A DNA stretch of 64,000 bases, taken from assembly GCF_026000775.1 (NCBI RefSeq), contig NZ_AP026830.1, positions 1,635,056 through 1,699,055 on the forward strand, written 5' to 3'. The notes under the pieces are model-generated. The model made no database searches. It had not been told where the DNA came from and worked only from the letters and a program-made list of their open reading frames with translations. Position numbers and translations under genes: made by a program. Of this stretch, positions 10,259 through 49,887 are shown piece by piece. Source of the stretch: Vulcanisaeta souniana JCM 11219. GTDB taxonomy: Archaea; Thermoproteota; Thermoprotei; Thermoproteales; Thermocladiaceae. Position 1 is the stretch's first letter. Every line of letters starts with the position of its first letter.

Positions 10259-10261
10259 GAG

Positions 10262-11194: not shown

Positions 11195-11225
11195 AGGACT
11201 TATTCACGCTATTACCTTTTTAAAA

Positions 11226-12142: not shown

Positions 12143-12158
12143 ACTCTATTCATTGGCC

Positions 12159-13070: not shown

Positions 13071-13119
13071 GTACTATTCTTAACTTTATAAATTCATAGA
13101 ATGGCCTTATGTATAATAA

Positions 13120-13731: not shown

Positions 13732-13838
13732 TCATAATGCACCTTATACCTTTAACTTTAGGACCTTAATTAATATTAAAATTAACACTAAGAACTCATA
13801 TACCATAATACCAATGCTGAGCATCTCCTTAGATACCA

Positions 13839-19359: not shown

Positions 19360-19361
19360 AA

Positions 19362-28086: not shown

Positions 28087-28110
28087 GCCCCGAGTCTTCA
28101 GTGGGATTCC

Positions 28111-32199: not shown

Positions 32200-32637
32200 T
32201 CACGTCAGCTCCGGCCTGTATATTATTGGTGTGTTTAGCCACATTAGGCCCATGTTTATCATGTCCTGGGACCTCCTAACGATAGCCCTGACCCACCCAA
32301 GTCTCTCGACCAGTTTCCTGCCGACTAGGTAGGCTACGAATTTCGCCTTCCTCATTAGTACGAGGCTTAGCGCCTCTATTACTGCCTCCCTGAGCATTTC
32401 CAGGGCCTTCGGTGACTTGAACCTGAGACCTCGCCTTAGGTATGGAATTGCCGCCTCAAGGAGGCCCCTGCGGAGTGAGTTAACCCTCCACCAGACGCCG
32501 AGTCTTAGGGCTATCCTCTTTGTTGATTGCATTAGTTGCAGGCTGATTGCATTGATGGTGTTGTTAAGGAAGTCTTTTATGAGTCCCAGGGCCTCCTCGG
32601 GCGGTATAAACATTATGACATATAAGTTAGGACCCAT
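32200..32637 (-). CDS. Conserved small protein, paralogue of the 36497-36871 product
   Basis: I do not recognise a named family for this 145-residue protein. It is basic and helical and shares a clear core with the protein at 36497-36871: WWRVNSLRRGLLEAAIPYLR, then MLREAVIEAL, RKAKFVAYLVGRKL and a tail around GLMWLNTPIIYR. The paralogues lie on the two arms of a divergent envelope locus. It overlaps the membrane-protein gene upstream (TAATG-type junction) and precedes the ATPase array by 42 bases, so it may link the two groups of genes in one transcript. Function unknown. Confidence 0.65.
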   Translation of the reverse strand: MGPNLYVIMFIPPEEALGLIKDFLNNTINAISLQLMQSTKRIALRLGVWWRVNSLRRGLLEAAIPYLRRGLRFKSPKALEMLREAVIEALSLVLMRKAKFVAYLVGRKLVERLGWVRAIVRRSQDMINMGLMWLNTPIIYRPELT

Positions 32638-33218
32638 TATATAAACATTGCCTGAGAATGAACCATTGGCTCTATGCTTGTTTGTCTTGGTTTACCGTGT
32701 TTCCTCACTTCCATGGCCGCTGGCATTGCCATTAGTCCCACGGCTAGGGCCACCCAGTATATTAGGTGTGGGGTTATTGTTATTGTCATTAGTATGTTGG
32801 TGCCTCCGTAATTCATGGTCATGACGCCGCTGCCCATGAGCACAAGCGGGTACCTCGCGGGTACGTGGTACAAGCCAAATACGTAGTTCGCTATGTAGTA
32901 TATTATGATTGGGTATATTAGGTATGGTATTGATAATGAGATTAATGTGTATGTCCTTATTGGTGTTCCCTTCACGGTCACTAGGTATATGTTTCTTGCA
33001 AGGATTATTATTAGGTATGCCCTGTATGCCTCGAGTATTGCTGTGATTAAGCCTGAGATCTCTAGGGTTGTTCCCAGGAGTGTTACCGTGAATTGGAATG
33101 GTGATGTTCCAATAATGAGTAGCCCTCCGAAGTTGTAGGTCCACCAATCCAGCGGTATTGCCACCACGGCCAGCCCAAGGACCAGGTACACCAGTGTGAT
33201 TGGGTGCTTGACCTTCAT
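32637..33218 (-). CDS. Integral membrane protein, about five segments
   Basis: This 193-residue protein has hydrophobic segments at about 8-25, 30-60 (LLIIGTSPFQFTVTLLGTTL), 60-80, 90-115 (YTLISLSIPYLIYPIIIYYI) and 145-170 (LIYWVALAVGLMAMPAAM). The loop near residue 130 contains SGVMTMNYGGTN. No family was recognised. It overlaps the repeat-protein gene upstream by four bases and the small paralogue gene downstream by one, so the three are one translational unit. It probably forms a membrane anchor or partner for the repeat protein, by context only. Confidence 0.6.
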   Translation of the reverse strand: MKVKHPITLVYLVLGLAVVAIPLDWWTYNFGGLLIIGTSPFQFTVTLLGTTLEISGLITAILEAYRAYLIIILARNIYLVTVKGTPIRTYTLISLSIPYLIYPIIIYYIANYVFGLYHVPARYPLVLMGSGVMTMNYGGTNILMTITITPHLIYWVALAVGLMAMPAAMEVRKHGKPRQTSIEPMVHSQAMFI

Positions 33219-34984: not shown

Positions 34985-36463
34985 ATGAGGGAGCCGCCAG
35001 TTGTTGGTGTGGTATTTGGATACCTATACTCTGCGGTTAATTACGCCCTTGCATTGATCTACGTCATTGTATTGACCAGGTACATACCCCTGACCCAATA
35101 TGGTTATTACAATACGTTAATGGCCATGATAGGTATGATAGGTCTATTCTTCCCAACCCTCGGTGTCGATGCTGCCATAGCCAGGGAGGGCGCCATGCTC
35201 CACTCAAGGGGCTTGGGCATTGATGACCACTACGCCGCGTTGCTGACCATTTCCCTGACAGTCTCGACACTCTACGCCACGGCGTTGATAATCGCAATAC
35301 CACTATACCTAGTCAGCAGGATGCCCAGTGAGTACATGGGCCTAGTCTTCATTTACGCGGCCTACGTGGCCATTGCTGGAATCAACGGCGCACTATCGGC
35401 GTACCTATGGATGATGGGTAGGTTGGCATCCCAGGGAATAGGCGGTATAGTGGGTAATATCGTGTTCAGGGGCATTGAGATAGCCCTACTGGTGCTGCTC
35501 AGGAGTGTTTATGCAATAGTAATTGGGATGGTGATAGGCCAACTGGTCACCCTAATCTACTACTTAGCCATTGTTAAGCGCCTTGTCAACCCAGGTAGGG
35601 GCGTTGCATTGATCAGGAGGGGTTTCAGGGGCTACCTAAGCCTTGGGATCCAGAATTGGTTACTTAGTTACCTGAGTTCAGTTAGTGGTTACGCGATTAC
35701 GTACGTGATTTACTCCTTCATTGGAACCACCTACGTCGCCCTATACAGCCTTGCGGGCTACATACTGGGGGCCATCACGGCGCTGGGAGGGGCCGTGACA
35801 AACGTGTTCGGGAGTAGGGTGGCCCACGCATTGGGTTCCGGCCTCACAGATAGGCACCACTTGATTCGTGATTACACGGTGGCTGCGATATCCGTAAGCG
35901 GCGTCCTAGCCACAGGGGCAATACTGGCGGCGCCATTACTGCCGCTGCTCGGCATCATTCATGGCGATTACGTCGAGACAATACCGTACGGCATTGCCCT
36001 ATTCGGCACTGCTGTACTCGGTTCTGTGAACTCGATATACTCAACGTACTACTGGGTATCCGGCAGGGGTTGGATCGCCCTCGAGGTCTCCTCCGTGGGC
36101 ATTGCGGTGAATGTGGTCATTGCATTGGCACTATTAATCGTTGATAGGGGCCTGGGCCTTTATTCCGTGATAATCGCGACTTACCTGGGCTCGTTGGCCC
36201 CACTCATTATGTACCTGCTCATGGATGGGAATCCCCAAATCAGTGATATTGTGGTAAACACCACCACGTACCTACTCCTCTCTATTGCCGGTGCGTTGCC
36301 ATACCTATTAATGGCCAATTCCTGGCCGCTGTATCAACTAATTGTCTTTCTAGTGACCATCCTCGTGACATACATCATGAGGCCAATACCCAGGTCCGTC
36401 ATTAACCAGCTGCCCGGCTTTGTAAAGCCGTTACTAACGCCATTCATTGAAACGGGCGAGTAA
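34985..36463 (+). CDS. Polysaccharide/oligosaccharide flippase (MOP superfamily, RfbX/Wzx-like)
   Basis: The 492-residue protein has about 14 hydrophobic segments starting GVVFGYLYSAVNYALALIYV. The paired-helix layout and conserved gate-region stretch YIPLTQYGYYNTLMAMIGMI are typical of MOP-type polysaccharide exporters. It should move lipid-linked glycans across the membrane, completing the pathway of the nearby glycosyltransferases. An AT-rich GCTTTAATTATG about 30 bases upstream is a likely promoter. The next gene begins 33 bases downstream from its own promoter. No truncation is seen. Confidence 0.85.
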   Translation: MREPPVVGVVFGYLYSAVNYALALIYVIVLTRYIPLTQYGYYNTLMAMIGMIGLFFPTLGVDAAIAREGAMLHSRGLGIDDHYAALLTISLTVSTLYATALIIAIPLYLVSRMPSEYMGLVFIYAAYVAIAGINGALSAYLWMMGRLASQGIGGIVGNIVFRGIEIALLVLLRSVYAIVIGMVIGQLVTLIYYLAIVKRLVNPGRGVALIRRGFRGYLSLGIQNWLLSYLSSVSGYAITYVIYSFIGTTYVALYSLAGYILGAITALGGAVTNVFGSRVAHALGSGLTDRHHLIRDYTVAAISVSGVLATGAILAAPLLPLLGIIHGDYVETIPYGIALFGTAVLGSVNSIYSTYYWVSGRGWIALEVSSVGIAVNVVIALALLIVDRGLGLYSVIIATYLGSLAPLIMYLLMDGNPQISDIVVNTTTYLLLSIAGALPYLLMANSWPLYQLIVFLVTILVTYIMRPIPRSVINQLPGFVKPLLTPFIETGE

Positions 36464-36496: not shown

Positions 36497-36871
36497 ATGA
36501 TTGATCATTACGTGATTAACCTAGTTAGGGAGTTCCTGGTGAGGCACGTTGACTGCATTAGCCTATCCGTACTAACTCACGTAAGGGTCCTCGCCATTAG
36601 GTACAACTCATGGTGGAGGGTCAACCCACTCAAGAGGGCGTTGATCAATGCAGCAATCGCCTACCTGAGGAACGGCCTCGTCATTAGGTCTACGACATTA
36701 ATAGGCATGCTTAGGGATGCCGTCATTGACGCGCTCATGAACACCGTTACCAGGAAGTTATCATTCATAGCCTACGTCATAGGGACCAAGCTCGGCGAAC
36801 CCAGGAACCCAGTAATTGCCGGGTTGCAGTGGCTCAATAGACCCGTGCAGTACAGGTGGTTGGTCGGGTGA
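36497..36871 (+). CDS. Conserved small protein, paralogue of the 32200-32637 product
   Basis: This 124-residue basic protein has the same core as the one on the other arm of the locus: SWWRVNPLKRALINAAIAYL, MLRDAVIDAL, RKLSFIAYVIGTKL and a WLNRPVQYRW tail. The pattern WWRVN-x-L-K/R-R-x-L is the diagnostic part. There are no clear membrane segments. It heads an operon that continues into the DUF1616 and MoxR genes, and its stop overlaps the next start (GTGA). Function unknown. Its repeated presence beside envelope genes suggests a scaffold or regulatory role, which is inference. Confidence 0.65.
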   Translation: MIDHYVINLVREFLVRHVDCISLSVLTHVRVLAIRYNSWWRVNPLKRALINAAIAYLRNGLVIRSTTLIGMLRDAVIDALMNTVTRKLSFIAYVIGTKLGEPRNPVIAGLQWLNRPVQYRWLVG

Positions 36872-37770
36872 GACACAGCCACCTACTGCTACTGGCCCTA
36901 CTACTCACGGCGCTGGGGATCGCGGCGCACTCCCAACAGCCAACGGCATTAACCGCGTATCAGTACATCGTCGAACTAAGTAAGTTGGGCGTTAACACCA
37001 CGTCCCTCGTCAATGAACTAAACAACGCAATAAGCCTCGAGGCATCGGGCCAGGTGGGTAATGCATCCGCGGTGGTGGGCGGTTTAATAGCCAGGGCACA
37101 ATCACTGATGCCCAGCGCGAGGCTTTGGTACGTGGTGGGCATAATCGCCAAGGCCGTCGCCTCGGCCGCGGTCATAGCCCTGGTCGCCGTGTTCTACGTC
37201 AAGAGGCGCGAGTTGATAGGCTCGATTTGGCTAAGGGCCAGGGGCAGTAATAGGGTTAGGGGCGGTGGACCCTGTAGGCCTAGGACCTTCATCTTCAATG
37301 AGGAGGTGGCCGCCGTGGCCCTATCCCTCGTTATAATACTAATTGTGTTCCTAACTGCCCAATCAATGGTGAGTGGTTACACCCAGTCCTTCTCTGCGAT
37401 TGGGTACCTGGGACCCACGGGCAAGCTCGGTGATTACCCAAGCACGGTCATCGTGGGCCAACCAATAAGTCTCTACATATACGTGTATAACCACATGGGC
37501 GTACCCACCTGGTTCGTGGTGAGGGTGTTCGTGATCAACAACACGGTGGCCCAACCACCCCTTAACCAGACGCCGGTCATGGTCTTCCAGAGGGTCCTCA
37601 TGAATAATGAGTCCTGGATCGAACCACTGACACTCAGCATAAACTCAACGGGTACCTACAGGATAATTAGTGAGTTGTGGATGTATAGCCCAGGCAACCT
37701 AACCCTCGTCTACACCGGTAATTACGTGCAGCTGTGGGTCAACGTGACCCAGGTGGTGCCCAGTGGATAG
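36868..37770 (+). CDS. Membrane-anchored protein with a DUF1616-like outer domain
   Basis: A 300-residue protein with a signal-like N-terminus (LLLLALLLTALGIAAHS), a first outer part, a membrane helix (VASAAVIALVAVFYV), a basic cytoplasmic loop rich in Arg/Gly and a second helix (VAAVALSLVIILIVFL). Then comes an outer domain of about 130 residues containing FSAIGYLGPTGKLGDYP and VIVGQPISLYIYVYNHMG, which matches the C-terminal half of DUF1616 proteins. The N-terminal half of that family is encoded by the next gene, so a DUF1616 protein appears split in two. The start is set at the GTG at 36868 in the GTGA overlap. Several N-glycosylation sequons lie in the outer domain. Confidence 0.6.
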   Translation: MRHSHLLLLALLLTALGIAAHSQQPTALTAYQYIVELSKLGVNTTSLVNELNNAISLEASGQVGNASAVVGGLIARAQSLMPSARLWYVVGIIAKAVASAAVIALVAVFYVKRRELIGSIWLRARGSNRVRGGGPCRPRTFIFNEEVAAVALSLVIILIVFLTAQSMVSGYTQSFSAIGYLGPTGKLGDYPSTVIVGQPISLYIYVYNHMGVPTWFVVRVFVINNTVAQPPLNQTPVMVFQRVLMNNESWIEPLTLSINSTGTYRIISELWMYSPGNLTLVYTGNYVQLWVNVTQVVPSG

Positions 37771-38350
37771 CCGCGACATTAGAGACGCCATTAGGAAGGC
37801 CCTAAGCACCAACCAGTGCGCGAGCGTTAGTGAGCTCGTAACTGAGGTTTCCAGGGCGTTGGGCGTTCCCAGGGGCCTGGTCGCCTATGAGGTCATGATG
37901 ATGTGGAAGAACGGAGAGCTGGAGCTCGAGGGCGTCCCACGCAATTCCGTGGCTTATGTCTTCAGTGTTGAGGGCCTTTGGTACTGGGTCTCCCTGGCCC
38001 TCGTCGCCGCGTCGATACTCGCCGTGACGTTAATAAACGGTGGGCCGCTCATCTACCTTAGGTATGGCCTAGGCGCATTGATGCTCCTGTTCATGCCGGG
38101 CTACGCACTCGTTGAGTCGCTGTACCCAAGGGGTGATGAATTAAGTCCGCTGGAGAGGCTCGCCCTATCCATTGGCCTCAGCCTAGCAGTCTTACCACTA
38201 ATCGGCCTAGTGCTTAACTACACCCCGTGGGGCATCAGGTTCGTGCCCATTGTGGTGTCCACGAATTCGGTAACGGTGACCCTACTCACGGTTGCCCTGG
38301 TCAGGAAGGCCAGGATATTCGAGGCGGGTGAGGATAGGTGCCAAGGCTGA
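37763..38350 (+). CDS. DUF1616 membrane half-protein with an N-terminal helix-turn-helix-like region
   Basis: This 195-residue protein begins with about 60 soluble residues (SVSELVTEVSRALGVPRGLV and a following helix) that look like a winged helix-turn-helix. The rest has four hydrophobic segments with the DUF1616 hallmarks LRYGLGALMLLFMPGYALVE, SPLERLALSIGLSLAVLP and LVLNYTPWGIRFVPIV. The usual outer C-terminal domain of DUF1616 is missing here but is present in the preceding gene. Genes overlap on both sides. DUF1616 proteins recur in archaeal envelope and glycosylation loci; the molecular role is unknown. Confidence 0.75.
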   Translation: MDSRDIRDAIRKALSTNQCASVSELVTEVSRALGVPRGLVAYEVMMMWKNGELELEGVPRNSVAYVFSVEGLWYWVSLALVAASILAVTLINGGPLIYLRYGLGALMLLFMPGYALVESLYPRGDELSPLERLALSIGLSLAVLPLIGLVLNYTPWGIRFVPIVVSTNSVTVTLLTVALVRKARIFEAGEDRCQG

Positions 38351-39063
38351 ACAGCGACCTGGGCATCTCATTGATAATACTCGGGGCAGGACTCCTGGTC
38401 ATTGGCTACCTAATCCTGGACTCGACCCCGGTCTTCGTGCTCGGGATAGCCGTGGTGATAATGGGGCTCCTGGCGGCGTGGGGTGAGGGATCGCTGGAGA
38501 GGACCCAGCTCGAGCTCGCCAGGTCCGGGTGGACGAACACAAGCGCCCTGCTGGAGAGCATTGGTACGGCCAGTAGGGCGATTTACCTACCCAGCTCAGC
38601 GACTGAGGCAGGGACGTCAATGGCCCTGGTACCGCTTGTAAGGCCTGAGCCACCAAGTATCAAATTGCCGAGGGGCTTCGCGATTAGGTATGGCAGGGAG
38701 GGAGAGTCCGGCCTCCTACTCTACACGCCAGGCTCAATAGCGGTTAGTAGGTGCTTGGGTGTTGGTGCCATAAGTAGTGACGTGGCCACAAGCCTAACCA
38801 ACTGCCTGGTCAATCACCTAACCGTGGCCCGCGGGGTGACGGCAATGCCCAGTGAGGGTGGCGTCACTGTAGTGGTTAGGGAGTCAAGGGTTGGGGAGTT
38901 GTATGGTAATGAGTTGGTGAGGGCTGTCCTTGGCTTGCCAACGGCCTCCCTGGTGGCCTCCGTGGTTGCTGAGTCCCTGAACTCACCGGTAGTGATAGAG
39001 ACGGAGGAGGTTAGGGGTAAGGACGTGGTTGTTAAGCTTAGGGTGGTTGGTGGTGGTCCTTAA
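38338..39063 (+). CDS. Membrane protein of unknown function in a MoxR-type operon
   Basis: A 241-residue protein with two hydrophobic helices near the start (LGISLIILGAGLLVIGYLIL and VFVLGIAVVIMGLLAAW), followed by about 180 soluble residues containing YLPSSATEAGTSMALVP and a region starting GFAIRYGREGESGLLLYTPG. The soluble part recalls hypothetical proteins that accompany MoxR-DUF58 genes in archaea, but I do not know a family name. The GTG start overlaps the previous gene by 13 bases. The operon is tightly packed on both sides. Confidence 0.6.
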   Translation: MPRLNSDLGISLIILGAGLLVIGYLILDSTPVFVLGIAVVIMGLLAAWGEGSLERTQLELARSGWTNTSALLESIGTASRAIYLPSSATEAGTSMALVPLVRPEPPSIKLPRGFAIRYGREGESGLLLYTPGSIAVSRCLGVGAISSDVATSLTNCLVNHLTVARGVTAMPSEGGVTVVVRESRVGELYGNELVRAVLGLPTASLVASVVAESLNSPVVIETEEVRGKDVVVKLRVVGGGP

Positions 39064-39313
39064 GCGATTATTAGTGGCACAGCTGGTTTTGTACACGGTC
39101 GTGATAGCGTTCCTAGCGTACTTGGGCATTAACGACTTTGCAATCTACATATCACTGATCACGCTGGTCTACCTCGTGACGATAATAACCGCCCACCCAC
39201 TACCGCCTGGTGCGCGTGGGGTCGCCAATGTCATAACGGCCATACTCGTGGCCGTGTTCCTATACTTCGCGGTGATGAGAATACTCCAAATACTCGGTGT
39301 GGCTGTGGTATGA
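39053..39313 (+). CDS. Small membrane protein, three helices
   Basis: From the GTG at 39053 the gene encodes about 86 residues, with hydrophobic segments LVAQLVLYTVVIAFLAYLGI, ISLITLVYLVTIITAHPL and NVITAILVAVFLYFAVM. A TTG start at 39029 is possible. It overlaps the preceding gene by 11 bases and shares four bases with the next start (ATGA). No family recognised. It probably belongs to the same membrane assembly as the neighbouring DUF4129-like protein. Confidence 0.55.
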   Translation: MVLKRLLVAQLVLYTVVIAFLAYLGINDFAIYISLITLVYLVTIITAHPLPPGARGVANVITAILVAVFLYFAVMRILQILGVAVV

Positions 39314-41169
39314 GGGTGATTTACCTAGCCCTCATCGCCCTTGGGATCGTCATGGCGGTGGTCTACCTAGGCCACGCCATTGCCTGGCCATCACTATCAA
39401 TCCCAAACCCACTTAATGAGAAGCTCTCGGTTAACACTCAGGGTGTTGTTCAGCTTTACATAACGGCCCTGGAGCTTAATGCCCTCGGTAATTACACGGG
39501 GGCCCTCAGCATTACGAAGGTCCTTGGCATCACCGCGGCGGTTAAGGTCTCGCCATTGATAAGTCAACTGCATAACTATGAGGCTCAACTTACGAATTAC
39601 CTAGTTGAATTGAGGAGTATCTACAATGAGATGGTTAACTCGATATCACTGGGTAATTATACCGGTGCCAGGTCCCTGGCAATTGAGGGTTTGCTTATTG
39701 ATAGTGAGGCTGATAATGAATTAAATGCGATATTAAGCATGCTCAACAATATTGCACCGGGTAGTGCCGGGCAGGTAATCAGCGCCGCCCAGTCAATTAG
39801 GCAGTACCTAATTGGCCTAAATGAGACCTTCATAAACGTACTAACCAGCAATTACACTAGGACTGAGCTAACGGTAAATGCCACGCCAAGCACGGTGGTT
39901 GTTGGGAGCCCGGTTACGGTGTATGGCGTGCTAACCACGATTAATGGCGTACCAATACCCAACGCCACAATAAACATCTACGTAGGGGGTAACTACGTTG
40001 GTAGGGCATTAACGAATGTTTACGGCCAATACTCATTAACATTCACAATGCCCCAGATATACGTGAACAGCGTTAACTTAACGGCGATCTACAACCCACC
40101 ACTGGGTGGTAATTACCTACCATCTGAAGCCACGGTGCAGATAAACGTGGCATTCAACACGACGTCACTCACAGCCAATTACACGAACCATGTCATGTGG
40201 GGTGAGCCCATCAACGTGAGTGGTTATGTGAGTGGCCCACCGATTAGGCAGGTGATTATTAGTATTGATGGGGTTAACGTGAGTACGTACACGGTAAATA
40301 ACGAATTCTCAACGACGATAAGCACGGGCAACATGACCCCAGGTAACTACTCAATAACTATCTACGCACCGCCGGTTGGCCCGTACTCACCCGCGTACAT
40401 GGTTGGTTCGGTTTCCGTGAGTTCCGTGGTTGAGAACGTAACGATAATTACGAATTACCTGGCGATAGCAGGCCTGCCTATTACCCTGAGGGGCTTTGTG
40501 GGTCCCTGGGTTGGTAACCTGTCCCTTTCATTATCGGTGGGTGGCGAGACAGTGCGCCTGGACTTAAATGGCCCGAACTTCACGGTCTCAATACCAACAT
40601 CACCGCTCTTGAGTATGGGTAGGCATTACATAATAGTCTCCGTAAGCCCAAGCCCGCCGGTAATGGGCGCTGTCTATACCTACGACGTATTCGTCGTGAA
40701 TATACCCGAGGTTGTCATACCCATGGCTATAGCCCTGGTGTTATTCCTGGCGGTGAGGACTGAGTCAATAACGTTGCCGGGTAGGGAGGGGGCTACGATT
40801 GATAACTCACGGCCTCAGGCAGGCCCCATGCCCATCATGGCAAGGCAAAGCGCTGAGGTTAGGGAGTTGAGGAGGGAGATCATGAGGGCGGCGTTGAGGA
40901 GTAAGGTGGACATTAAGAGCGTTAGGGATATAGTGGATGCATTGGCGAGCGCCATCTACGCCATTGGGAATAGGACTGGGGTTAGGCTTAGGGACACAGA
41001 CACCCTCAGGGAGTACCTAAGGGCTGTTCGGGGTAGGCTAAGTGATGAGGAGTACGCAGTATTTGCGGAGCTCGTTAGGCTCGGTGAATACACACTGTAC
41101 TCACCCCACATACCAAGTGATGAGGATGTGAGGAGGGCATGGGAGCTGGCGGGAAGGCTCGCTCAATAA
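39310..41169 (+). CDS. Large membrane protein with Ig-like outer domains and a DUF4129-like cytoplasmic tail
   Basis: The 619-residue protein opens with an export helix (VIYLALIALGIVMAVVYLGH). A helical outer part (about 40-180) is followed by beta-rich Ig/Big-type domains, such as TVVVGSPVTVYGVLTTINGV, IPNATINIYVGGNYVGRAL and SVNLTAIYNPPLGG, and a second one near ANYTNHVMWGEPINVSGYV. A membrane helix lies near residue 480 (VVIPMAIALVLFLAV). The cytoplasmic C-terminus (LREYLRAVRGRLSDEEYAVF and ELVRLGEYTLYSPHIPSDED) resembles DUF4129, a domain found with transglutaminase-like and MoxR/DUF58 systems. The outer part has many N-glycosylation sequons. It overlaps both neighbours and sits in one operon with MoxR. 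Confidence 0.7.
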   Translation: MRVIYLALIALGIVMAVVYLGHAIAWPSLSIPNPLNEKLSVNTQGVVQLYITALELNALGNYTGALSITKVLGITAAVKVSPLISQLHNYEAQLTNYLVELRSIYNEMVNSISLGNYTGARSLAIEGLLIDSEADNELNAILSMLNNIAPGSAGQVISAAQSIRQYLIGLNETFINVLTSNYTRTELTVNATPSTVVVGSPVTVYGVLTTINGVPIPNATINIYVGGNYVGRALTNVYGQYSLTFTMPQIYVNSVNLTAIYNPPLGGNYLPSEATVQINVAFNTTSLTANYTNHVMWGEPINVSGYVSGPPIRQVIISIDGVNVSTYTVNNEFSTTISTGNMTPGNYSITIYAPPVGPYSPAYMVGSVSVSSVVENVTIITNYLAIAGLPITLRGFVGPWVGNLSLSLSVGGETVRLDLNGPNFTVSIPTSPLLSMGRHYIIVSVSPSPPVMGAVYTYDVFVVNIPEVVIPMAIALVLFLAVRTESITLPGREGATIDNSRPQAGPMPIMARQSAEVRELRREIMRAALRSKVDIKSVRDIVDALASAIYAIGNRTGVRLRDTDTLREYLRAVRGRLSDEEYAVFAELVRLGEYTLYSPHIPSDEDVRRAWELAGRLAQ

Positions 41170-42014
41170 GGTGGACACCAATATCCCTGGCACTACTGGC
41201 GTTGATCATAATAGCCATTGCGCTCGGCCCATCACTCACACCATTCGACGCCTACAACACCTACTGGGATGGCTACTCAGAGGCCGCTTCAATATGCCTA
41301 AGGCCCGTCTACGCCCTGCCCAACAACTTAGTGAACGTGTCATCGGTATTCATAGTTCCAGAGGGCAATGTTAGTGGGTCCCTGGTTACGGAGTTGCTCG
41401 ATTACGTGATTAATGGAGGCAGGTTAGTGATACTTAACGGTAATGAGTCATTCAGCAACCAATTACTCAAGGAGTTAGGTGTTGGGAGTAGGTTTACGGG
41501 TAACGTCATTGAGGACCCCGTATTGAACGTAATTAATGAGAAATTCCCACTGGCCTTCATCGTCAGTAACCCAGTGGTTCAGACCAACGCCACAACCATA
41601 GCACTTGACGATGCCACGACCATCAGCATTAACGACGCTGGTGCCGTGACCATCGCAGTAACGAGTAGGTTCAGTGCGGCGGGTAATTCCACAGGGCCAT
41701 TCTCTGTGGTTGTTGCCGTACCCGTGGGTAAGGGCTACGTGATATTGGTGTCCAGCCCGGGCATGTTCATGAACTCCATGACTAATGAGACGGGTAATGC
41801 GGAATTCCTGAGGGCGTTGTGTGGTAATGGCACGGCGCTGTATCTGGAGAGCGCATTGGCAGGTAATCCCCAGGGTGTCGTCAGGGCTTGGCTATTAACG
41901 GCTTATACCTACGCATCCACCTACCCCATTAATTACCTAATTATTGTAATGCCGGTCATAATAATCATGGTAGTACTATTAATAAATGAGGCAAGGCATG
42001 GTGCCGAGGTATGA
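41139..42014 (+). CDS. DUF4350-like membrane protein
   Basis: A 291-residue protein with an N-terminal membrane helix (PISLALLALIIIAIALG) and another near the C-terminus (YLIIVMPVIIIMVVLLI). The outer domain between them resembles DUF4350: FIVPEGNVSGSLVTELLDYV, then INGGRLVILNGNES and VVVAVPVGKGYVILVSSPG. DUF4350 proteins accompany MoxR and DUF58 genes. It overlaps the DUF4129-like gene by 31 bases and the MoxR gene by four bases. This supports a four-part membrane assembly. Confidence 0.65.
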   Translation: MGAGGKARSIRWTPISLALLALIIIAIALGPSLTPFDAYNTYWDGYSEAASICLRPVYALPNNLVNVSSVFIVPEGNVSGSLVTELLDYVINGGRLVILNGNESFSNQLLKELGVGSRFTGNVIEDPVLNVINEKFPLAFIVSNPVVQTNATTIALDDATTISINDAGAVTIAVTSRFSAAGNSTGPFSVVVAVPVGKGYVILVSSPGMFMNSMTNETGNAEFLRALCGNGTALYLESALAGNPQGVVRAWLLTAYTYASTYPINYLIIVMPVIIIMVVLLINEARHGAEV

Positions 42015-42973
42015 GCGCTCAGGGACTTAACGTGATTAAGCGCATTAAGGATGGTATTTCAAGGGTATTCATTGGTAACGAACCGGCAATACAGGTGTTA
42101 TTGGCAACACTCCTCAGCGAGGGTCATGCACTGCTACTGGGTCCAATAGGCTCCGGCAAGACGACGCTGGCCAGGGCTTTGGCGTCGATAATAGGGGGTA
42201 CGTTTAAGAGGGTTCAGGTGACTAATGAGACACTCCCATCGGACATACTGGGCTTCATAATTTACGCACCCGGTATGGAGCCCAGGCTTGTTAAGGGGCC
42301 CATCTTCGCAAACGTGGTCCTCCTCGACGAGATCAATAGAGCGCCACCGAGGACCCTATCGGCATTGATAGAGGCAATGCAGGAGAGGCAGGTAACCATT
42401 GATGGCACACCCCTCGAGCTACCCAGGCCCCACATGGTCCTTGCAACGATGAACATAGTCGAGGTTGAACTCGGCTACACTCAGGCACTGCCGATGGCGA
42501 TACTCGATAGGTTCATGTCGAGTATATACGTGAGTTACGTAAGCGATGCCGAGGAGGTCATGATAATCAAGGATATTGATAGGATAGAGCATGAGTTATC
42601 AACGCTGGGTAGTATCACCAGCCTTGGTGAGGTTGCGAAATTAATAGATGATGTAAAGAACGTGTATGTTGATGACTCGGTGATCGGCTACATCATGGGC
42701 CTGGTTAGGGAGATTAGGAGCGATCCAAGGGTTCAGGTAACGCTCAGTACCAGGGCGTCCATAAGCCTCTTCAAGCTTTCAAGAGCCCTGGCCTACCTCG
42801 ATGGTAGGGACTACGTACTTCCCGATGACGTTAAGGTGGCGGCGTACCCAGCCCTCATGCATAGGATAATCCTCAGGCCTGAGTATAGGGGTTCCGTAAC
42901 GCCGATCAGCGTCATCAATGACGCATTGAATAAGGTCCCTGTACCCCACTACATACAGACCCCGGTGCGGTAA
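42011..42973 (+). CDS. MoxR-family AAA+ ATPase
   Basis: The 320-residue chaperone-like ATPase shows Walker A GPIGSGKTTLARAL near residue 43, followed by TNETLPSDILGF, Walker B VVLLDEINRAPPRTLSALIE, the insert QERQVTIDG, and sensor 1 MVLATMNIVEVELGYTQAL, where the usual NP is changed to NI. The C-terminal lid holds the TLSTRASISLFKLSRALAYL arginine motif. MoxR proteins activate partners that carry metal-ion-dependent adhesion sites or DUF58 domains. Here the DUF58 gene follows after four bases. The strong order MoxR-DUF58 supports this being a functional pair. Confidence 0.92.
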   Translation: MSAQGLNVIKRIKDGISRVFIGNEPAIQVLLATLLSEGHALLLGPIGSGKTTLARALASIIGGTFKRVQVTNETLPSDILGFIIYAPGMEPRLVKGPIFANVVLLDEINRAPPRTLSALIEAMQERQVTIDGTPLELPRPHMVLATMNIVEVELGYTQALPMAILDRFMSSIYVSYVSDAEEVMIIKDIDRIEHELSTLGSITSLGEVAKLIDDVKNVYVDDSVIGYIMGLVREIRSDPRVQVTLSTRASISLFKLSRALAYLDGRDYVLPDDVKVAAYPALMHRIILRPEYRGSVTPISVINDALNKVPVPHYIQTPVR

Positions 42974-42977
42974 GGCC

Positions 42978-44267
42978 ATGATAAGGGGACTCGGCAAACA
43001 GTGGGTGCGGGTGCTCGCCACATCACTACTTATAGTGGCGGCAGTGCTTTCGCTAGGTAATGCGGTGTTGTTCGCCGTATACGTAACGGCCGCGGCCATC
43101 GCATGGATTTACTGGGGTAAGTACCCAATACCGCTGTCCCTGGGCGTGGTCGCACTAACCTCGTTGGTCACGCCCCCAATGAACATCGCGTTGACGTCAG
43201 CATCGATAATGCTGATGGACAACGCCCTTAAAACGGGTAATGACAGGCCCTGGTGGTTCTACGCGGCGCCCCTCGCAACCTCGGCATTGCTCGCGGCGAT
43301 TCTCAGGCAGTTCTACACCGCGGTCTCATTCGCCATACCATTAATCTACGTATTACTGATGTCGTTAATAAGCATCATTAGGCACCACACAGCCACTATT
43401 GAACTAAGGCCCAGCAGGAACCTACGCATTAACGCCGGCTCCGGACTGCTGTACTCGCTGACGGTAGTCACGAAGCCCCCACTCAGGGCGGTAGTGGAGG
43501 TTAAGGCCCCGGGGAGCCTCAGGGTAAGCCCAACCAGGCTCTACCTTAATGGCGAGGCCTCCATCAACGTGAACGCCAGGTACAACCTCGGCGGTGTTAA
43601 GAGGCCGAGGCTTGTCCTCACGTTCACCGACACACGCGGCCTCGTGAGGGTGAGGAGGGTCGTTAGGCACCCGAGAATCACCGTAATACCCAGGGCGAGG
43701 ACTGCTATTCAATTCGCCAGGGGCTTACTGGCTCAATCAGCGTTGACGCTGGGTGCCGAGGACGTCCGTGAGGTTAGGGAGTACGTACCGGGCGACCCAA
43801 TCAGGAGGTTGCATTGGAAGAAGAGCGCGAAATTGAATAAGTTAATCATCAAGTTACTGCAGGGCCCGGGATTGCCGGGCCCCATCATCCTGCTATCCTA
43901 CGCAACAAGCCCTACACTGGTTGATAGGGTTGGGGAGGTCCTCGTTTACTTAACCGCTGAGTTGCTAACGAGAATCCCGAGGATAGAGGTCATCTCCGTG
44001 GATAGGGACGGTAAAGCCACTAATTACGTGCTCAGTAGAGATAATTATTTCGAAATGATTGAGAAAGCTTTGAACAAAATTGAAAATCTAAATATGAAGC
44101 TCGTTGGCGGTGGTGACTATGCGGATGTACTGGGCACCATTAAGTACTCAATACCCTTAAGGGTTAAGGGCATGGTTAAGGAGGGCGTCATAGTCATTGG
44201 GCAAGGATTGTTCGTGGAGCCAATATGCAATGCCTTTAAGGAGCGTGTAATTTGTATTTCCGTATAG
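42978..44267 (+). CDS. DUF58-domain protein
   Basis: This 429-residue protein has N-terminal hydrophobic segments (VLATSLLIVAAVLSLGNAVL and following) then a beta-rich middle (SLRVSPTRLYLNGEASINVN). The DUF58 hallmark is VREYVPGDPIRRLHWKKSAK followed by KLIIKLL. DUF58 proteins are vWA-like partners of MoxR ATPases. This copy lacks an obvious MIDAS DxSxS sequence in the C-terminal part, which is common in short members. It is the last gene in the operon; the next gene starts 80 bases later behind an AT-rich promoter-like region. Confidence 0.88.
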   Translation: MIRGLGKQWVRVLATSLLIVAAVLSLGNAVLFAVYVTAAAIAWIYWGKYPIPLSLGVVALTSLVTPPMNIALTSASIMLMDNALKTGNDRPWWFYAAPLATSALLAAILRQFYTAVSFAIPLIYVLLMSLISIIRHHTATIELRPSRNLRINAGSGLLYSLTVVTKPPLRAVVEVKAPGSLRVSPTRLYLNGEASINVNARYNLGGVKRPRLVLTFTDTRGLVRVRRVVRHPRITVIPRARTAIQFARGLLAQSALTLGAEDVREVREYVPGDPIRRLHWKKSAKLNKLIIKLLQGPGLPGPIILLSYATSPTLVDRVGEVLVYLTAELLTRIPRIEVISVDRDGKATNYVLSRDNYFEMIEKALNKIENLNMKLVGGGDYADVLGTIKYSIPLRVKGMVKEGVIVIGQGLFVEPICNAFKERVICISV

Positions 44268-44346: not shown

Positions 44347-45483
44347 ATGAACATGGTGAGATTACTGATGATGCTCGAGGGATTAAGCATCGCGCTTATA
44401 GTAATGCATTTCATAACGCCAAGTATTTACTACGTAATTGCGAGGGGCTGGCTAAGGCTTAGTAGCAAAACAGGCAGTAGGGATGGGCTTACCACCGAAC
44501 CGCCATTTGTGTCAATAATAATACCAACGTATAATGAGGCTAAGGTAATAACTCAGAAATTGAGTAATATCTACCTGCAGGACTACCCGAGGGATAGGTT
44601 TGAGGTCATTATTGTTGACTCAGGGAGTACTGACGGAACAATGGATTTAATTCGTGAGTGGGTTAAAGGTCATGGGGACATTAACGTTAGGGTTATTGAG
44701 GAGGGTGTTCGAATGGGCAAGGCCCACGCCCTAAACACGGCATTGAGGAACGCCAAGGGCGACATTATAGTGATTACTGACGCTGACTCAACCTGGTTAA
44801 GGGACTCCCTTAGGAATGCCGTTACCTGGCTTGTGAATGATTGCGTTGGTGCTGTTTCCTGCAATAAAGTACCGAGGACTAACAAGGACGTTGAGACTGA
44901 GTATAGGAATTACTACGGCTTGCTTAGGATTGCCGAGAGTAGGAAGTTCTCATCAGCCATATTCCATGGAGAATTGGCTGCGTTTAAGAGGGATTTACTT
45001 GAGAAAATTGGTGGTTTTCCCACGGATCTTGGCGCCGATGATAGTCACACGGCCGGCTTAATATCAATGATGGGTTATAGGGCTATTATCCCCGAGGATG
45101 TTAAGTGCATTGAGTATGTGCCGAGTAAGGGCTACTGGACGTGGAGGATCAGGAGGGCCCAGCATTTAATCCAGCACTTCCTAAGGTTCCTGAGGTACGT
45201 GTTAATTGATGGTAGGGACCTACCCAGGGATTACAGGCAAATAATGCTCTATGAATCATACCTACACCTGGTCAATCCCTGGCTTTTCGTAGTAGGACTT
45301 GTATTGATAATCATATCTGCAATACACGGCGCCTTAATACCCATTGCACTACTACTGATTGGAGCCGCCCTACTGGTCATTAAGATATTCAGGACCTGGG
45401 TAATGACCCAGGTAATACTCGTGGCGGCCGCCATTAGGAACCTGTGGAATAAGGAGTTGGTATGGAGGAAGATAGAGAAGTGA
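44347..45483 (+). CDS. Membrane-bound processive-type glycosyltransferase family 2
   Basis: The 378-residue enzyme begins with a membrane helix (SIALIVMHFITPSIYYVIA). The catalytic GT-A domain has FVSIIIPTYNEAKVITQKLS, VIIVDSGSTDGTMDLI, GKAHALNTALRNAKGDIIVI and TDADSTW. The acceptor motif is FPTDLGADDSHTAG, and WTWRIRRAQHLIQ corresponds to the Q/RXXRW region. Two or three more helices follow (WLFVVGLVLIIISAIHGALI and after). This is the layout of hyaluronan-, cellulose- and dolichyl-phosphate-sugar-type synthases. The gene overlaps the GT-C-like gene by 22 bases. A likely promoter is the AT-rich stretch 44291-44312. Confidence 0.87.
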   Translation: MNMVRLLMMLEGLSIALIVMHFITPSIYYVIARGWLRLSSKTGSRDGLTTEPPFVSIIIPTYNEAKVITQKLSNIYLQDYPRDRFEVIIVDSGSTDGTMDLIREWVKGHGDINVRVIEEGVRMGKAHALNTALRNAKGDIIVITDADSTWLRDSLRNAVTWLVNDCVGAVSCNKVPRTNKDVETEYRNYYGLLRIAESRKFSSAIFHGELAAFKRDLLEKIGGFPTDLGADDSHTAGLISMMGYRAIIPEDVKCIEYVPSKGYWTWRIRRAQHLIQHFLRFLRYVLIDGRDLPRDYRQIMLYESYLHLVNPWLFVVGLVLIIISAIHGALIPIALLLIGAALLVIKIFRTWVMTQVILVAAAIRNLWNKELVWRKIEK

Positions 45484-47072
45484 CTAGGGTTGCGCCCATA
45501 ATTGCGCCGCTCGCAATACTCGCATCATTGGTGATGCTCAATTACGTGATCAATGGTCTACCGTACATACCCGACTCCTGGGTCCACATAGCCCACTCGG
45601 AAACCCTGCTGAGGACGGGTTATCTCTTCGGTCCATCACCAAACCCATCAATGGTAAGCTACAACTACCAGTGGCCCACGGTAAACCTACTACTCGCCCT
45701 ATCACAGTCTGTGCTTGGTTTGAGCCCTCTACAGTCGTTTTATGTAGTGAGCCTCCTAGCGTCACTATCCATAATACCCTTCGTATTATTCGTGATGAGA
45801 TTAACGAGGAGTAACTCCGTGACCCTAATCACGGGCTTACTATTCGCGGTATTAAGCGTTAAACTCCTCGTTGATTCATCGGTAATGAAGGAGACGGCTG
45901 CCCAATACCCATTCTACGCCTACCTACTGGCCACGTACATGGCATTAACGGATAGGAAGCACTTCAGGCAGAACCTGGTGGTTATGGTCCTGGCCTTCGT
46001 GGCCATACTCTTCGCCCATCACTTCACGCTATTAATGGCGCTGGCCTACACCTTCATAATCTCAATAACAGTATTAGTAAGTAACTACCTGAGTGGTGAG
46101 GATGCCAGGCGTGGACTTTACGTATTAATCACTGTAATAGCCCTGGGCCTACTCACCTATTACTGGTACATGGACTACTTGAGGACATTCAGCGTCACGG
46201 GCTTCGTAACGCCAGGCCTAATCTCAACGCCAATCCTCATAGCCCTCCTCCTAATTGACTACGTAACAATGCGCAGGGGGTCGCGAATAGCGATCTACAC
46301 CACACTGTCGATGATTGCCCTCGCATTAATAGCCATGTTCTCAATCGGCAGGCTCCAACCCTACATATTGGAGGGATTTAACAGGGCTGTGGTCCTATCA
46401 TCGATACCTTACATACTACCAATCCTCATGGCCGTACTCTACCTAGCCCTTTACGGACTTGAGAGGCCCGTAATTACCATTACCACGATAATATCGCTCG
46501 CCATACTACTCTACGTCCTACTCATGGGCAACAACCCACTGGAACTGCTCTTCCTCTCCAAGTCCCTGGACTTCGTTATGCCCTTCCTACTAATACCAAC
46601 GGCACTGGTGATTACCTGGACCACGAGACGCAGATTACCCCTTAAGGTCATTATCTACGTACTCACGGCGGCCATGGTAATTTCATTACCCATGTTCGCC
46701 GTACTAACCCTATACACGTACTCACTGCCAACTTCATCAACCCTCACCGTCTACAGAATGATTGATTACAAAGAATTAAATGCCGTAAATTCCCTAATAC
46801 CGAGAAACTCCACACTCTACTCACCAATCAGCTATGAGTCAATGATAATGTTCATGACAGGGATTAACTCCTCAGACCCAACCACCCACCTGCTCCATGG
46901 TGAGGCACCACCGGGTTTACTCATGCTCACCCAAAGGAACCTAAGGATTGGCTTCCTCTACGGCTCGGGCTATGGCATGGTTAACATACCCAGGAACTAC
47001 CTACTCAACACCCTGGCGGGTGATGACCTGGTATACTCGAGCAGGACCCTATGGCTTTGGACAAAGCCCTAA
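45462..47072 (+). CDS. Polytopic membrane protein, probable GT-C glycosyltransferase
   Basis: The 536-residue protein has about 12 hydrophobic segments. The first outer loop has INGLPYIPDSWVHIAHSETL, in which the acidic Asp lies at the position used for catalysis in GT-C enzymes. VMKETAAQYPFYAYLLATYM is another recognisable loop, and an outer C-terminal domain ends LWLWTKP. It matches the architecture of the 17752-19359 product. Coupled to a GT2 gene, it could use the dolichyl-linked sugar that the GT2 product makes. It meets the ABC transporter gene tail-to-tail with a four-base overlap. Confidence 0.6.
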   Translation: MEEDREVTRVAPIIAPLAILASLVMLNYVINGLPYIPDSWVHIAHSETLLRTGYLFGPSPNPSMVSYNYQWPTVNLLLALSQSVLGLSPLQSFYVVSLLASLSIIPFVLFVMRLTRSNSVTLITGLLFAVLSVKLLVDSSVMKETAAQYPFYAYLLATYMALTDRKHFRQNLVVMVLAFVAILFAHHFTLLMALAYTFIISITVLVSNYLSGEDARRGLYVLITVIALGLLTYYWYMDYLRTFSVTGFVTPGLISTPILIALLLIDYVTMRRGSRIAIYTTLSMIALALIAMFSIGRLQPYILEGFNRAVVLSSIPYILPILMAVLYLALYGLERPVITITTIISLAILLYVLLMGNNPLELLFLSKSLDFVMPFLLIPTALVITWTTRRRLPLKVIIYVLTAAMVISLPMFAVLTLYTYSLPTSSTLTVYRMIDYKELNAVNSLIPRNSTLYSPISYESMIMFMTGINSSDPTTHLLHGEAPPGLLMLTQRNLRIGFLYGSGYGMVNIPRNYLLNTLAGDDLVYSSRTLWLWTKP

Positions 47073-47731
47073 GGCTCAGTCGTTAATTCACCAGCCCTAA
47101 TCATATAAAGCCTATCCGAATTCCTAATCAGGTACTGGTCGTGGGTCGCCACAAGCACAACCCTACCCAACCCAGCCTCCTCCCTAAGTATCCTAATTAA
47201 CAACTCTACGTTGGCCCTGTCGAGGCTATTCGTTGGTTCATCCATAATGAGGAACTCATGATCCCTGGCTAGGGCTACCGCTATCGAGGCCCTCCTCCTC
47301 TCACCACCACTCACCTGCCCAGGCCTCTTATCAAGAACATGCCCAATCCCAATCAACCCACTGACCCACCTAATCCTCTCCTCAATAACCCTATTACCAA
47401 GTCCCTGAACTCTAAGGGCCAGCCTAAGGTTCTCCCTAATCGTCAAACCACTCACCAGTAGGTCGTCCTGGGGCACGTAGGAGACTAGGTTAACAACTTC
47501 ACGGGCCCTCGAGTCTGCGTAAATGTCGACGCCGTTTATTAAGACCCTGCCCGAGTCAGGCCTTAGGTAGCCGGCTATTATCCTCAGTAGTGTCGACTTA
47601 CCACTACCGCTCGGCCCAGCTATGCATGTTATTGAGTTTGGCGGCGTGTTAATGCTGACGTTCCTTAATACTGCGTAATTGCCGAGGGACTTCGATACAT
47701 TGATCACGCTAATACCGAAATTAATCAACAT
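47069..47731 (-). CDS. ABC transporter ATPase, LolD/MacB type
   Basis: This 220-residue nucleotide-binding subunit has Walker A GPSGSGKSTLLRIIA, a Q-loop in VSYVPQDDLLVSGLTI, signature VSGGERRRASIAVALAR, and Walker B EFLIMDEPTNSLD with a following H-loop (VLVATHDQYLI). It belongs to the group that pairs with FtsX-fold permeases, encoded by the overlapping upstream gene. The small size and lack of extra domains fit an exporter or mechanotransmission ATPase. The stop overlaps the convergent GT-C-like gene by four bases. Confidence 0.93.
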   Translation of the reverse strand: MLINFGISVINVSKSLGNYAVLRNVSINTPPNSITCIAGPSGSGKSTLLRIIAGYLRPDSGRVLINGVDIYADSRAREVVNLVSYVPQDDLLVSGLTIRENLRLALRVQGLGNRVIEERIRWVSGLIGIGHVLDKRPGQVSGGERRRASIAVALARDHEFLIMDEPTNSLDRANVELLIRILREEAGLGRVVLVATHDQYLIRNSDRLYMIRAGELTTEP

Positions 47732-49346
47732 CGATCACCCTAGACCTAATCACTAAATGCATTATTATTAGTAGCAGGAGGGTGGTGATGAGGGCGACGG
47801 TATATGGGTAGTGATTACTCACGGCAATTAGGTAAATTGGTTGATTCATGATCCCTAATTTCATGAACCTAGTCATGAGCGGCCACAGGTAGTTGGCCGT
47901 TAGGAACCCAAGCGCCGTGGAAATTATATACGTGACTATGATCGGTAGGTCAACCAGTAATGCCATGTTTAAACCGTCAGCCCTGTTCAATCTCAAGTAT
48001 GTGATTAATTCCCTGTTAACATTAATTGAGTATTCGCTGATCCCCACTACACCGATGGATACTATGACCAGGAGACTAATGATGATCCCAATGAATGTAC
48101 CAATGCCTATCTTCAGGGCATTAATTAATGCCTCAGACCCAGAATTGGGGGTTAGCGGCGTTACCTTCGTGAAGTAATTATATGCATGCGTCATTAACTC
48201 GCTCATTACCACGGAATAGGGCGTCAGCACCACGGTCACGTTTAGCCCAGGCCCTATGTATTTACTCACGGTGTAGTATACCGAACTCATGATAATAACA
48301 ATCCTATACGTATTACCTAACAACGAAATTGGGGTGGCACCGCCCCCCACTGTTGAGTAGGCCAATGAACCATTCATGTAATAAATCAATAAGTAATAAT
48401 TACTTACTAACGAACCATTGGGCCACTCCACAGTAACCCACTCACTCGGTATTGCATATGTCGTGTTGATGACCCTCGGTATTGAAACACCCACCACCCT
48501 AATGGTGTCATTACCACTTAGTATTACTGGGAGGAACCAGGTGATTGCCGACTCATTATATGCAATCACGTAGTACACGCCGAACGGTAATGCCAGCGTA
48601 GTGTTGGTAAGTGGCCCGTTAAACACCGTGTGATTCATGGAATCCAATACCGCCAGGTAATCATTGCTCATGTTTGTGATTATCCTCAATTCATAGACCT
48701 GATTCACCCTACTTATTAATTCATAACTCGCGTTGATGTATATTGCATTAACTATGGGTGATGGTAATGAATCCAGGCGCTGCGCCATGGTTATGTTTAA
48801 GATAACCTCATAATTGAGTTGTGGATATCTAGATGAGGTTATGATCCCGGTAACCGTTAGATTATCCGTGATGCCCTTGAAAGAGGTTATAATTAGCTCA
48901 TCGCCAACCTTAACATGTAGCTCCTCAGCTAATTTATAACCAACCAACGCACCCCGGCCCAAGTCAGGCTGCGTAGCGTTTATGCTGTAATAACCAATAC
49001 AACCTGGTTCAATACCCCTAATGATTGCTGGGGTTTCATTCACAATCGACGGTACTATGACCTCCGGCACGGCTGTCACGCCCATGTCCCTGAGGGAGTA
49101 GGCCAGGTTTATTGGTACCCAACTCGTGAATATGGATATTGACTCACCCTTCTTAATCGTAGCATTGCCAATATTAAGGAGGAATAGTTGCGGTAGGTAA
49201 TACATGGCTAACATCGTGGATATAACCAAGCCCAGCGCCAGGGCTACGAGGTAGATAGATAGCACAGTTACGGCCAAGCCCCTAGGGTAGAGAGGCATAC
49301 CTACGCACCCATACAATTCCCTCTCCAATGTATGTAACGCATGCAA
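47721..49346 (-). CDS. FtsX/MacB-type ABC permease
   Basis: A 541-residue permease. The N-terminal helix (LAVTVLSIYLVALALGLVIS) is followed by a large outer domain of about 350 residues, with GRGALVGYKLAEELHVKVGD and ITSFKGITDNLTVTGIITSS typical of the MacB periplasmic core domain. Three C-terminal helices follow (IGIGTFIGIIISLLVIVSIG, then LVDLPIIVTYIISTALGFL, and a final one near LITTLLLLIIMHLVI), the FtsX core. The outer domain carries many sequons. It overlaps the ATPase gene by 11 bases and the upstream small membrane gene by 65. The substrate may be a lipid or surface-linked compound. Confidence 0.8.
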   Translation of the reverse strand: MHALHTLERELYGCVGMPLYPRGLAVTVLSIYLVALALGLVISTMLAMYYLPQLFLLNIGNATIKKGESISIFTSWVPINLAYSLRDMGVTAVPEVIVPSIVNETPAIIRGIEPGCIGYYSINATQPDLGRGALVGYKLAEELHVKVGDELIITSFKGITDNLTVTGIITSSRYPQLNYEVILNITMAQRLDSLPSPIVNAIYINASYELISRVNQVYELRIITNMSNDYLAVLDSMNHTVFNGPLTNTTLALPFGVYYVIAYNESAITWFLPVILSGNDTIRVVGVSIPRVINTTYAIPSEWVTVEWPNGSLVSNYYLLIYYMNGSLAYSTVGGGATPISLLGNTYRIVIIMSSVYYTVSKYIGPGLNVTVVLTPYSVVMSELMTHAYNYFTKVTPLTPNSGSEALINALKIGIGTFIGIIISLLVIVSIGVVGISEYSINVNRELITYLRLNRADGLNMALLVDLPIIVTYIISTALGFLTANYLWPLMTRFMKLGIMNQPIYLIAVSNHYPYTVALITTLLLLIIMHLVIRSRVIDVD

Positions 49347-49887
49347 CGCAGGCCAGGGGAATTACCACCGGCAATGCGCTTGTTATGTCAATGCCGTAAT
49401 TAGCAATTGGTATCAAATTCAGTGTCGTCAAAACCTTCATAAGCACCAATACAAGGGCCACCGCCACGGAGACCCCCAATGCAAATGAGTATATGGAGAT
49501 AAGGAACATTAATAGCGCGATATACGTAGTGGCGCTTAGGCTCGACCTAAAGATGCTAATTATGGCCTTAAGATCATCCTTCAAGCTCCTTATTAGGCCA
49601 TTAACCATGAATATTGACGTCACGATGAAGACTATGGTTAATGAGGTAATTATTAAGTACGTTATGGAGTTTATGAAACTAATGGCATTAATTACTATGG
49701 ATCTTAAATATGGGGTTGCCGTGGCAATCAACGACCCTACGTATGTATTAAGAATATTCATTAGTAACTCATACGTTGTTAATATGGCCATGGGTATTGC
49801 AGCATTCACTATCAACAACCTAAATGAATTAATATCCCTAATGAAGAACCTAACCGATGCATCAATTACATAAATTAGGCGATACAT
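49282..49887 (-). CDS. Integral membrane protein, partner of the ABC exporter
   Basis: The 201-residue protein has about four hydrophobic segments: LIVNAAIPMAILTTYELLMN, ITYLIITSLTIVFIVTSIFM, TTYIALLMFLISIYSFALGV and ALPVVIPLACVACV. It lacks outer domains. No family was recognised. The 65-base overlap with the permease gene and the shared strand suggest one operon and perhaps one complex. No clear promoter was found immediately upstream; the region holds a decayed gene. Confidence 0.55.
   Translation of the reverse strand: MYRLIYVIDASVRFFIRDINSFRLLIVNAAIPMAILTTYELLMNILNTYVGSLIATATPYLRSIVINAISFINSITYLIITSLTIVFIVTSIFMVNGLIRSLKDDLKAIISIFRSSLSATTYIALLMFLISIYSFALGVSVAVALVLVLMKVLTTLNLIPIANYGIDITSALPVVIPLACVACVTYIGEGIVWVRRYASLP

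Follow-up and report, generated by a model that had tools for sequence, protein, structure and literature searches.

A MoxR-DUF4350 operon of Vulcanisaeta souniana and its recurring neighbourhood with a GT-C protein of predicted STT3-like fold and an ABC transporter

In 2015 Makarova, Galperin and Koonin (PMC5898192) predicted a new secretion system in which DUF4350 proteins (arCOG01314) are grouped with MoxR, von Willebrand factor A (vWA)-type, DUF1616, immunoglobulin (Ig)-like surface and small membrane proteins. That paper describes DUF4350 as similar to GldG and the core as partly present in Halobacteria, and its Table 2 lists neither a glycosyltransferase nor an ATP-binding cassette (ABC) transporter (PMC5898192). 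The secretion prediction was repeated in 2019 for arCOG02884/HVO_2173 (PMC6393860), and the Haloferax DUF1616 protein HVO_2173 also appears in a list of AglB-dependent glycoproteins (PMC8241124). We found no experimental work on the arCOG01314 system in the literature searched, and the 2015 proposal offered neither a substrate nor a handle for biochemistry. Here we analyse an operon at positions 36497-44267 (+) of a 64,000-nucleotide window from Vulcanisaeta souniana JCM 11219 (contig NZ_AP026830.1, positions 1,635,056 to 1,699,055), whose genome is a single 2.43 Mb contig. By its domain content the operon is, with strong support, the Thermoproteota form of the arCOG01314 system, and since the core was published in 2015 the operon as such is not new. 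The new part is a proposed coupling with a GT-C/ABC unit, seen in roughly two fifths of the fuller gene neighbourhoods (19/49, defined below) and backed by gene fusion.

Layout and conservation of the operon

Inspection of the coordinates of the open reading frames (ORFs) confirmed the operon on the + strand, with nine ORFs instead of the eight genes of the original prediction. Successive ORFs overlap or almost abut each other, the overlaps being 16, 8, 13, 35, 4, 31 and 4 bases from 5' to 3', with a 4-base gap preceding the DUF58 gene. The series starts with g124 (36497..36871, +), a 124-aa protein for which Pfam and further searches revealed no family. It is followed by DUF1616, which is split across two ORFs in an order opposite to that of the profile: the C-terminal, Ig-like part, preceded by an N-terminal helical secreted region, comes first (36856..37770, +; PF07760, 35.2 bits, profile positions 150-284), and the N-terminal membrane part, which itself begins with a small conserved domain, comes second (37763..38350, +; PF07760, 105.7 bits, profile positions 4-121), both scoring above the Pfam cut-off of 31.6 bits. 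The small N-terminal domain looks cytosolic and, by eye, may be of winged helix-turn-helix type.

The next ORFs encode g241 (38338..39063, +), which combines a two-transmembrane-helix hairpin with a soluble alpha/beta domain (AlphaFold2 model, pLDDT 92.3, pTM 0.81), the small membrane protein g94 (39029..39313, +), and a protein with Ig-like repeats and a C-terminal DUF4129 domain (39310..41169, +). DUF4129 exceeds its Pfam cut-off (PF13559, 30.1 versus 24.8 bits), and the Ig-like domain Big_3_5 is slightly below its own (PF16640, 33.1 versus 35.5 bits). The membrane-anchored DUF4350 protein (41139..42014, +) is of the arCOG01314 type by its Pfam domain (PF14258, 50.1 bits, cut-off 30.4); comparison with PDB sequences gave no useful match. 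Its gene adjoins that of the MoxR/GvpN-family AAA+ ATPase (42011..42973, +; PF07726 (AAA_3), 136.6 bits) with a 4-base overlap, and MoxR has intact Walker A and B motifs, which are invariant columns in the alignment. The operon ends with the DUF58 gene (42978..44267, +). The MoxR, DUF4350, DUF4129 and DUF1616 domains that had been predicted are thus all above their Pfam cut-offs, and DUF58 is below (19.5 versus 23.4 bits), having kept the DUF58 signature (R-E-Y-x-PGD...WK) common to its relatives. As a DxSxS-like metal-ion-dependent adhesion site (MIDAS) pattern was present in 0 of the 61 DUF58 proteins scanned, including two others of this genome, metal-dependent vWA binding by the DUF58 protein is doubtful.

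On the 5' side lies, as predicted, a flippase gene of the MOP superfamily (Polysacc_synt; 34985..36463, +; PF01943, 52.1 bits), and on the 3' side, also as predicted, the genes for a GT2 membrane glycosyltransferase (44347..45483, +; PF00535, 114.3 bits) and a GT-C protein (45462..47072, +). The GT-C gene is followed by convergent genes for an ABC ATPase of a MacB/LolCDE-like transporter (47069..47731, -; PF00005, 109.2 bits), a MacB-like permease (47721..49346, -; PF12704 (MacB_PCD)) and a small membrane protein adjoining the permease (49282..49887, -), which had no Pfam match and was seen in 5 of 74 loci, in the examined set only in this genus. The predicted 3' boundary at 44267 is too short, as in close relatives conservation continues past the operon through GT2 and GT-C to the end of the convergent ABC genes at 49887. 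Three of these relatives (L032, L033 and L035) are collinear with the window all the way from the flippase to the ABC genes, as is L038 except for its g124; in L034 the stretch is cut by the contig end. In L034 and L035, two draft genomes of the same genus, copies of the block have broken frames, due to either sequencing errors or decay.

To follow the operon beyond these relatives we assembled 74 DUF4350 neighbourhoods, comprising the window, 13 loci from a search of the order, where 14 of 45 genomes carry a DUF4350 gene, and 60 hand-picked matches from the phylum, where PF14258 matches occur in 126 of 397 genomes. The hand-picked loci were mainly PF14258 matches above cut-off in frames of roughly 250-430 aa, with L136 (533 aa) as a longer exception. 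Forty full-length stretches at round-number positions of the same genomes served as controls, and all stretches were annotated with profiles grown from the proteins of the window. Several test stretches are truncated by contig ends, which biases the comparison against the test set, and the denominators include 17 neighbourhoods that lack the Ig/DUF4129 gene and may represent other DUF4350 proteins or truncated contigs.

MoxR was found in 66, DUF58 in 60, the Ig/DUF4129 gene in 57 and each DUF1616 part in 42 of the 74 neighbourhoods. Both g241 and g94 occurred in 49 neighbourhoods each and in 0/40 controls, and g124 in 20 neighbourhoods versus 0/40 controls. Among the 49 neighbourhoods holding g241, Ig/DUF4129 and DUF4350, which come from 22 families and to which we refer as the fuller ones, the series g241-g94-Ig/DUF4129-DUF4350 was consecutive and on one strand in 45, indicating that the core gene order is not due to chance. 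A second g124-like ORF lies at 32203-32691 (-) of the window and shares 43% identity with the operon copy. Next to it, at 26526-32157 (-), we noticed five ATPase-like ORFs, related to one another and each about 335 aa long (starting at 26526, 28111, 29124, 30140 and 31144), and a cluster of 345-aa ORFs occurs in six DUF4350 neighbourhoods.

The link to sugar-transfer and ABC transporter genes

The same comparison was made for the flanking genes, with family counts given beside P values since loci of the same family are not independent. The GT-C gene was present in 20/74 neighbourhoods versus 0/40 controls, covering nine families, the ABC permease in 18/74 versus 0/40, in the same nine families, and GT2 in 25/74 (13 families) versus 2/40. 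Clustering all proteins against each other without profiles agreed with these counts, giving a GT-C cluster with 20 loci versus 0 and one GT2 cluster with 19 versus 0. Neither GT4 (10/74 versus 3/40, P=0.26) nor the ABC ATPase alone (28/74 versus 13/40, P=0.36) was enriched; a first ATPase count of 65/74 was discarded in favour of the resolved one, being probably inflated by cross-matches to ATPases such as MoxR. The flippase was found in 8/74 neighbourhoods and 0/40 controls, in two families of this order only, and we dropped it as the main glycan link beyond the order. Permease and GT-C genes are same-strand neighbours in 13 loci, mostly in the order permease-GT-C-ATPase, and convergent in the window.

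The association also emerged from whole genomes. A profile search gave a GT-C match in 50 of the 397 genomes of the phylum, and at least 40 of these 50, counted by hand, are also DUF4350-positive, compared with 126/397 overall (Fisher P 6e-14). In at least 20 of the 50 genomes the GT-C gene is located 10.5 kb or less from a DUF4350 match, with positions taken from the match listings, whereas about 0.8 would be expected assuming genomes of 1.7 Mb with 1.25 DUF4350 copies each; in one of these 20 pairs (G372) the adjacent frame is 825 aa long and may encode a different protein. We then analysed 20 further GT-C loci, mostly not near a DUF4350 match. In three of them (L263, L264 and L265, from genomes G385, G086 and G145 of families f21, f31 and f40) the N-terminal part of DUF1616 is fused ahead of GT-C, with Pfam scores above cut-off. 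Two others (L274 and L275) are near the operon and one (L260) starts within DUF58, and most of the remaining ones show a permease-GT-C pair or triplet without the MoxR block.

The original prediction had linked the operon to glycan genes on either side. The link holds for GT-C and GT2, and fails as a general one for the flippase, with GT4 not being significant; across the phylum we did not find synteny reduced to MoxR-DUF58 with the glycan genes unlinked. The glycan link therefore has support well beyond this genus, the flippase not being its main carrier. The original interpretation is partly supported, with assembly or quality control of the surface layer as a putative role.

The GT-C protein of the window had no Pfam or NCBIfam match, and searching 18 GT-C members against Pfam gave one weak, irrelevant match and no match to STT3. 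An AlphaFold2 model based on 18 sequences (pLDDT 70.5, pTM 0.72) matched STT3, PglB and AglB over the whole length (Foldseek E 1.5e-6), with a Z score of 24.2 for yeast STT3 (rmsd 5.0, 443 residues) and of 22.9 for archaeal AglB (rmsd 4.6, 433 residues). Judged by this model the protein has an STT3-like fold. Other GT-C enzymes, PMT, ArnT, ALG12 and Aft, rank next with Z scores of about 12 to 20, so that the class is clear and the nearest function is not. The invariant columns include Asp38, in the segment that follows the first helix, Trp40, Lys143, Glu144 and His186. A motif scan found WWDYG in 0 of the 18 members and in the genome's own AglB (L286, PF02516 match); as the motif is missing we ruled out a standard oligosaccharyltransferase and did not file the protein as one. 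Comparison of the GT-C protein with this AglB by hhalign yielded nothing (prob 0.2), meaning that the relation between the two is one of fold.

The permease of the window is below the cut-off for MacB_PCD (25.8 versus 27 bits). Permeases of relatives (L081) are above the FtsX cut-off, with a weak match to LolCE.

A proposed surface machine and competing explanations

From the gene identities, the conserved gene order, the GT-C fold, the recurring ABC/GT-C neighbourhood and the DUF1616 fusion we infer a function, to which we give an even chance: a MoxR-driven membrane machine would work with the ABC/GT-C pair to glycosylate a surface molecule and put it in place. The machine would be a multi-protein membrane assembly with most of its mass outside the cell and the MoxR AAA+ ATPase inside. 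The substrate, the five steps and their sequence are all part of the proposal. First, a lipid-linked sugar would be supplied by GT2 together with further cytosolic glycosyltransferases and, within this taxonomic order, the flippase. The GT-C protein would then attach the sugar to a lipid or protein at the outer side of the membrane. In a third step the outer domains of the ABC transporter might move mechanically, pulling the product from the membrane or handing it on, and the DUF4350, Ig/DUF4129 and DUF1616 proteins would accept the product or fix it in place at the surface layer. Finally, MoxR and its DUF58 partner would use ATP to assemble or reset the machine. A more specific version, in which the STT3-fold GT-C protein belongs as a working subunit to an ABC exporter that pulls on the membrane and is linked via DUF1616 to the MoxR machine, the whole glycosylating a lipid-anchored surface molecule and lifting it into the surface layer of Thermoproteota, is tentative and on balance unlikely; the literature searched contained no case of a GT-C enzyme coupled with a mechanical ABC exporter.

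Several observations weigh against such coupling. Among the matches listed, 30 of the 50 GT-C genes have no DUF4350 match in a range of 10.5 kb, some of them on short contigs, although three of these 30 are still near the operon by profile annotation. Seen from the operon, GT-C is not within reach in 30 of the 49 fuller neighbourhoods, some again on short contigs, and four genomes of the same family (G002, G003, G004 and G013) hold the block and gave no GT-C match. The ABC/GT-C cassette also occurs without the MoxR block in seven stretches (L257, L258, L259, L261, L262, L268 and L276), so that it can probably function by itself. A search of 196 genomes from the Halobaculum phylum gave six partial weak matches and no full-length GT-C, which, given that the core is partly present in Halobacteria, implies that the GT-C unit is not universal. 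Moreover, the GT-C model is of moderate confidence only, as reflected by its pLDDT.

The strongest rival keeps to the 2015 proposal of protein secretion and gives the system no role in glycosylation, its nearness to glycosyltransferases being due to a shared cell-surface gene neighbourhood. It was published for the same gene set with the similarity of DUF4350 to GldG (PMC5898192), and the core is wider than the GT-C link, with GT-C in 19 of the 49 fuller neighbourhoods. It predicts, however, neither a GT-C gene beside the ABC permease in nine families nor DUF1616-GT-C fusions, and we consider it a possible but improbable explanation.

Alternatively, MoxR-DUF58 might be a general chaperone pair and the rest a co-transcribed, loose operon for surface-protein maturation. 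This genome indeed contains three further close MoxR genes with DUF58-like neighbours and other partners, and MoxR shares an operon with DUF58 and further membrane proteins in L010 and L011 and, as read from the translation, lies beside transglutaminase-like and pilus-type genes in L009. As the MoxR-DUF58 pair alone thus has no fixed glycan link, we judged the link on the whole block. Loose co-transcription would not preserve the gene order that is kept in 45/49 neighbourhoods of 22 families, which makes this explanation quite unlikely. In L009 we observed by eye, at 7361-10758, a locus with transglutaminase-like, MoxR and DUF58-like genes, close to which lie genes for a pilus-type membrane protein and a ParA-like protein.

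The weakest rival builds on g241, whose soluble domain has BcsD, TRAPP Bet3, V4R sensor domains, YslB and H-NOX proteins as best fold matches. The top match (Z 7.3, rmsd 3.9, 126 residues) lies in the Z range that the tool regards as noise; Foldseek gave an E value of 0.03, and no profile match was obtained. Most of the better matches belong to what we take to be one shared fold type, and this agreement is suggestive of a Bet3/V4R/BcsD-type fold, weak but consistent, though with scores in a range the tool calls common. Transmembrane sensing or regulation, with the DUF1616 N-terminal domain, a conserved region in the alignment, binding DNA and the g241 domain, of possible ligand-binding fold with its weak V4R, Bet3 and BcsD matches, binding a ligand, is very unlikely, as no Pfam helix-turn-helix family matched among the members scanned, the g241 matches (Z 7.3 or less) are within noise, and GT-C and ABC are left unexplained.

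Further features of the window include a large glycan island at 5778-25723 (-), where reading the translations suggested many glycosyltransferase-like ORFs together with carbamoyltransferase-like and sugar epimerase-like ones. By eye, an ORF at 2569-4773 (+) resembles family B DNA polymerases and lies beside two possible replication-module ORFs, possibly representing an integrated element, and an ORF at 59506-60027 (-) has a type IV pilin-like N-terminus.

Returning to the proposed glycosylating machine, the GT-C/ABC cassette and the DUF1616-GT-C fusions provide the handle that the 2015 proposal lacked: they point to glycans and surface molecules and predict contacts between named proteins. 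If the proposal is true, many Thermoproteota (50/397 genomes by profile) would carry, besides AglB, an STT3-fold enzyme that is invisible to Pfam.

Comparison with known systems

DUF4129 is also found with MoxR-DUF58-transglutaminase operons. In these operons, represented by the bifidobacterial PFNA and the mycobacterial moxR operon, MoxR adjoins DUF58 (PMC12067865), as it does here. They differ in that a transglutaminase was detected in 0/74 neighbourhoods with a one-sequence profile, the separate L009 locus having one, and Pfam gave no match to a transglutaminase core in the nine ORFs of the operon.

With STT3, PglB and AglB the GT-C protein shares the predicted fold over its whole length, with Z scores up to 24.2, and the invariant residues Asp38 and Glu144. 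In contrast to them it lacks WWDYG, a Pfam STT3 match and a sequence match to the AglB of its own genome.

The ABC transporter resembles LolCDE, MacB and FtsX transporters in combining an ABC ATPase with permeases that match FtsX above cut-off in relatives and MacB_PCD below cut-off in the window. The transporter is, however, far below the NCBIfam equivalog cut-offs, and in most other loci the GT-C gene lies between the permease and ATPase genes. To our knowledge, an outer membrane is absent from archaea of this kind.

The closest relative is the arCOG01314/arCOG02884 secretion or membrane remodelling system, which likewise brings together DUF4350, MoxR, DUF1616 and small membrane proteins; its vWA-type partner and Ig-like surface proteins have putative counterparts here in the DUF58 and Ig/DUF4129 proteins. 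The Thermoproteota operon differs from it in having GT-C, ABC transporter, GT2 and g124 genes recurring nearby, and in its DUF1616, which here extends over two ORFs and in relatives is fused to GT-C.

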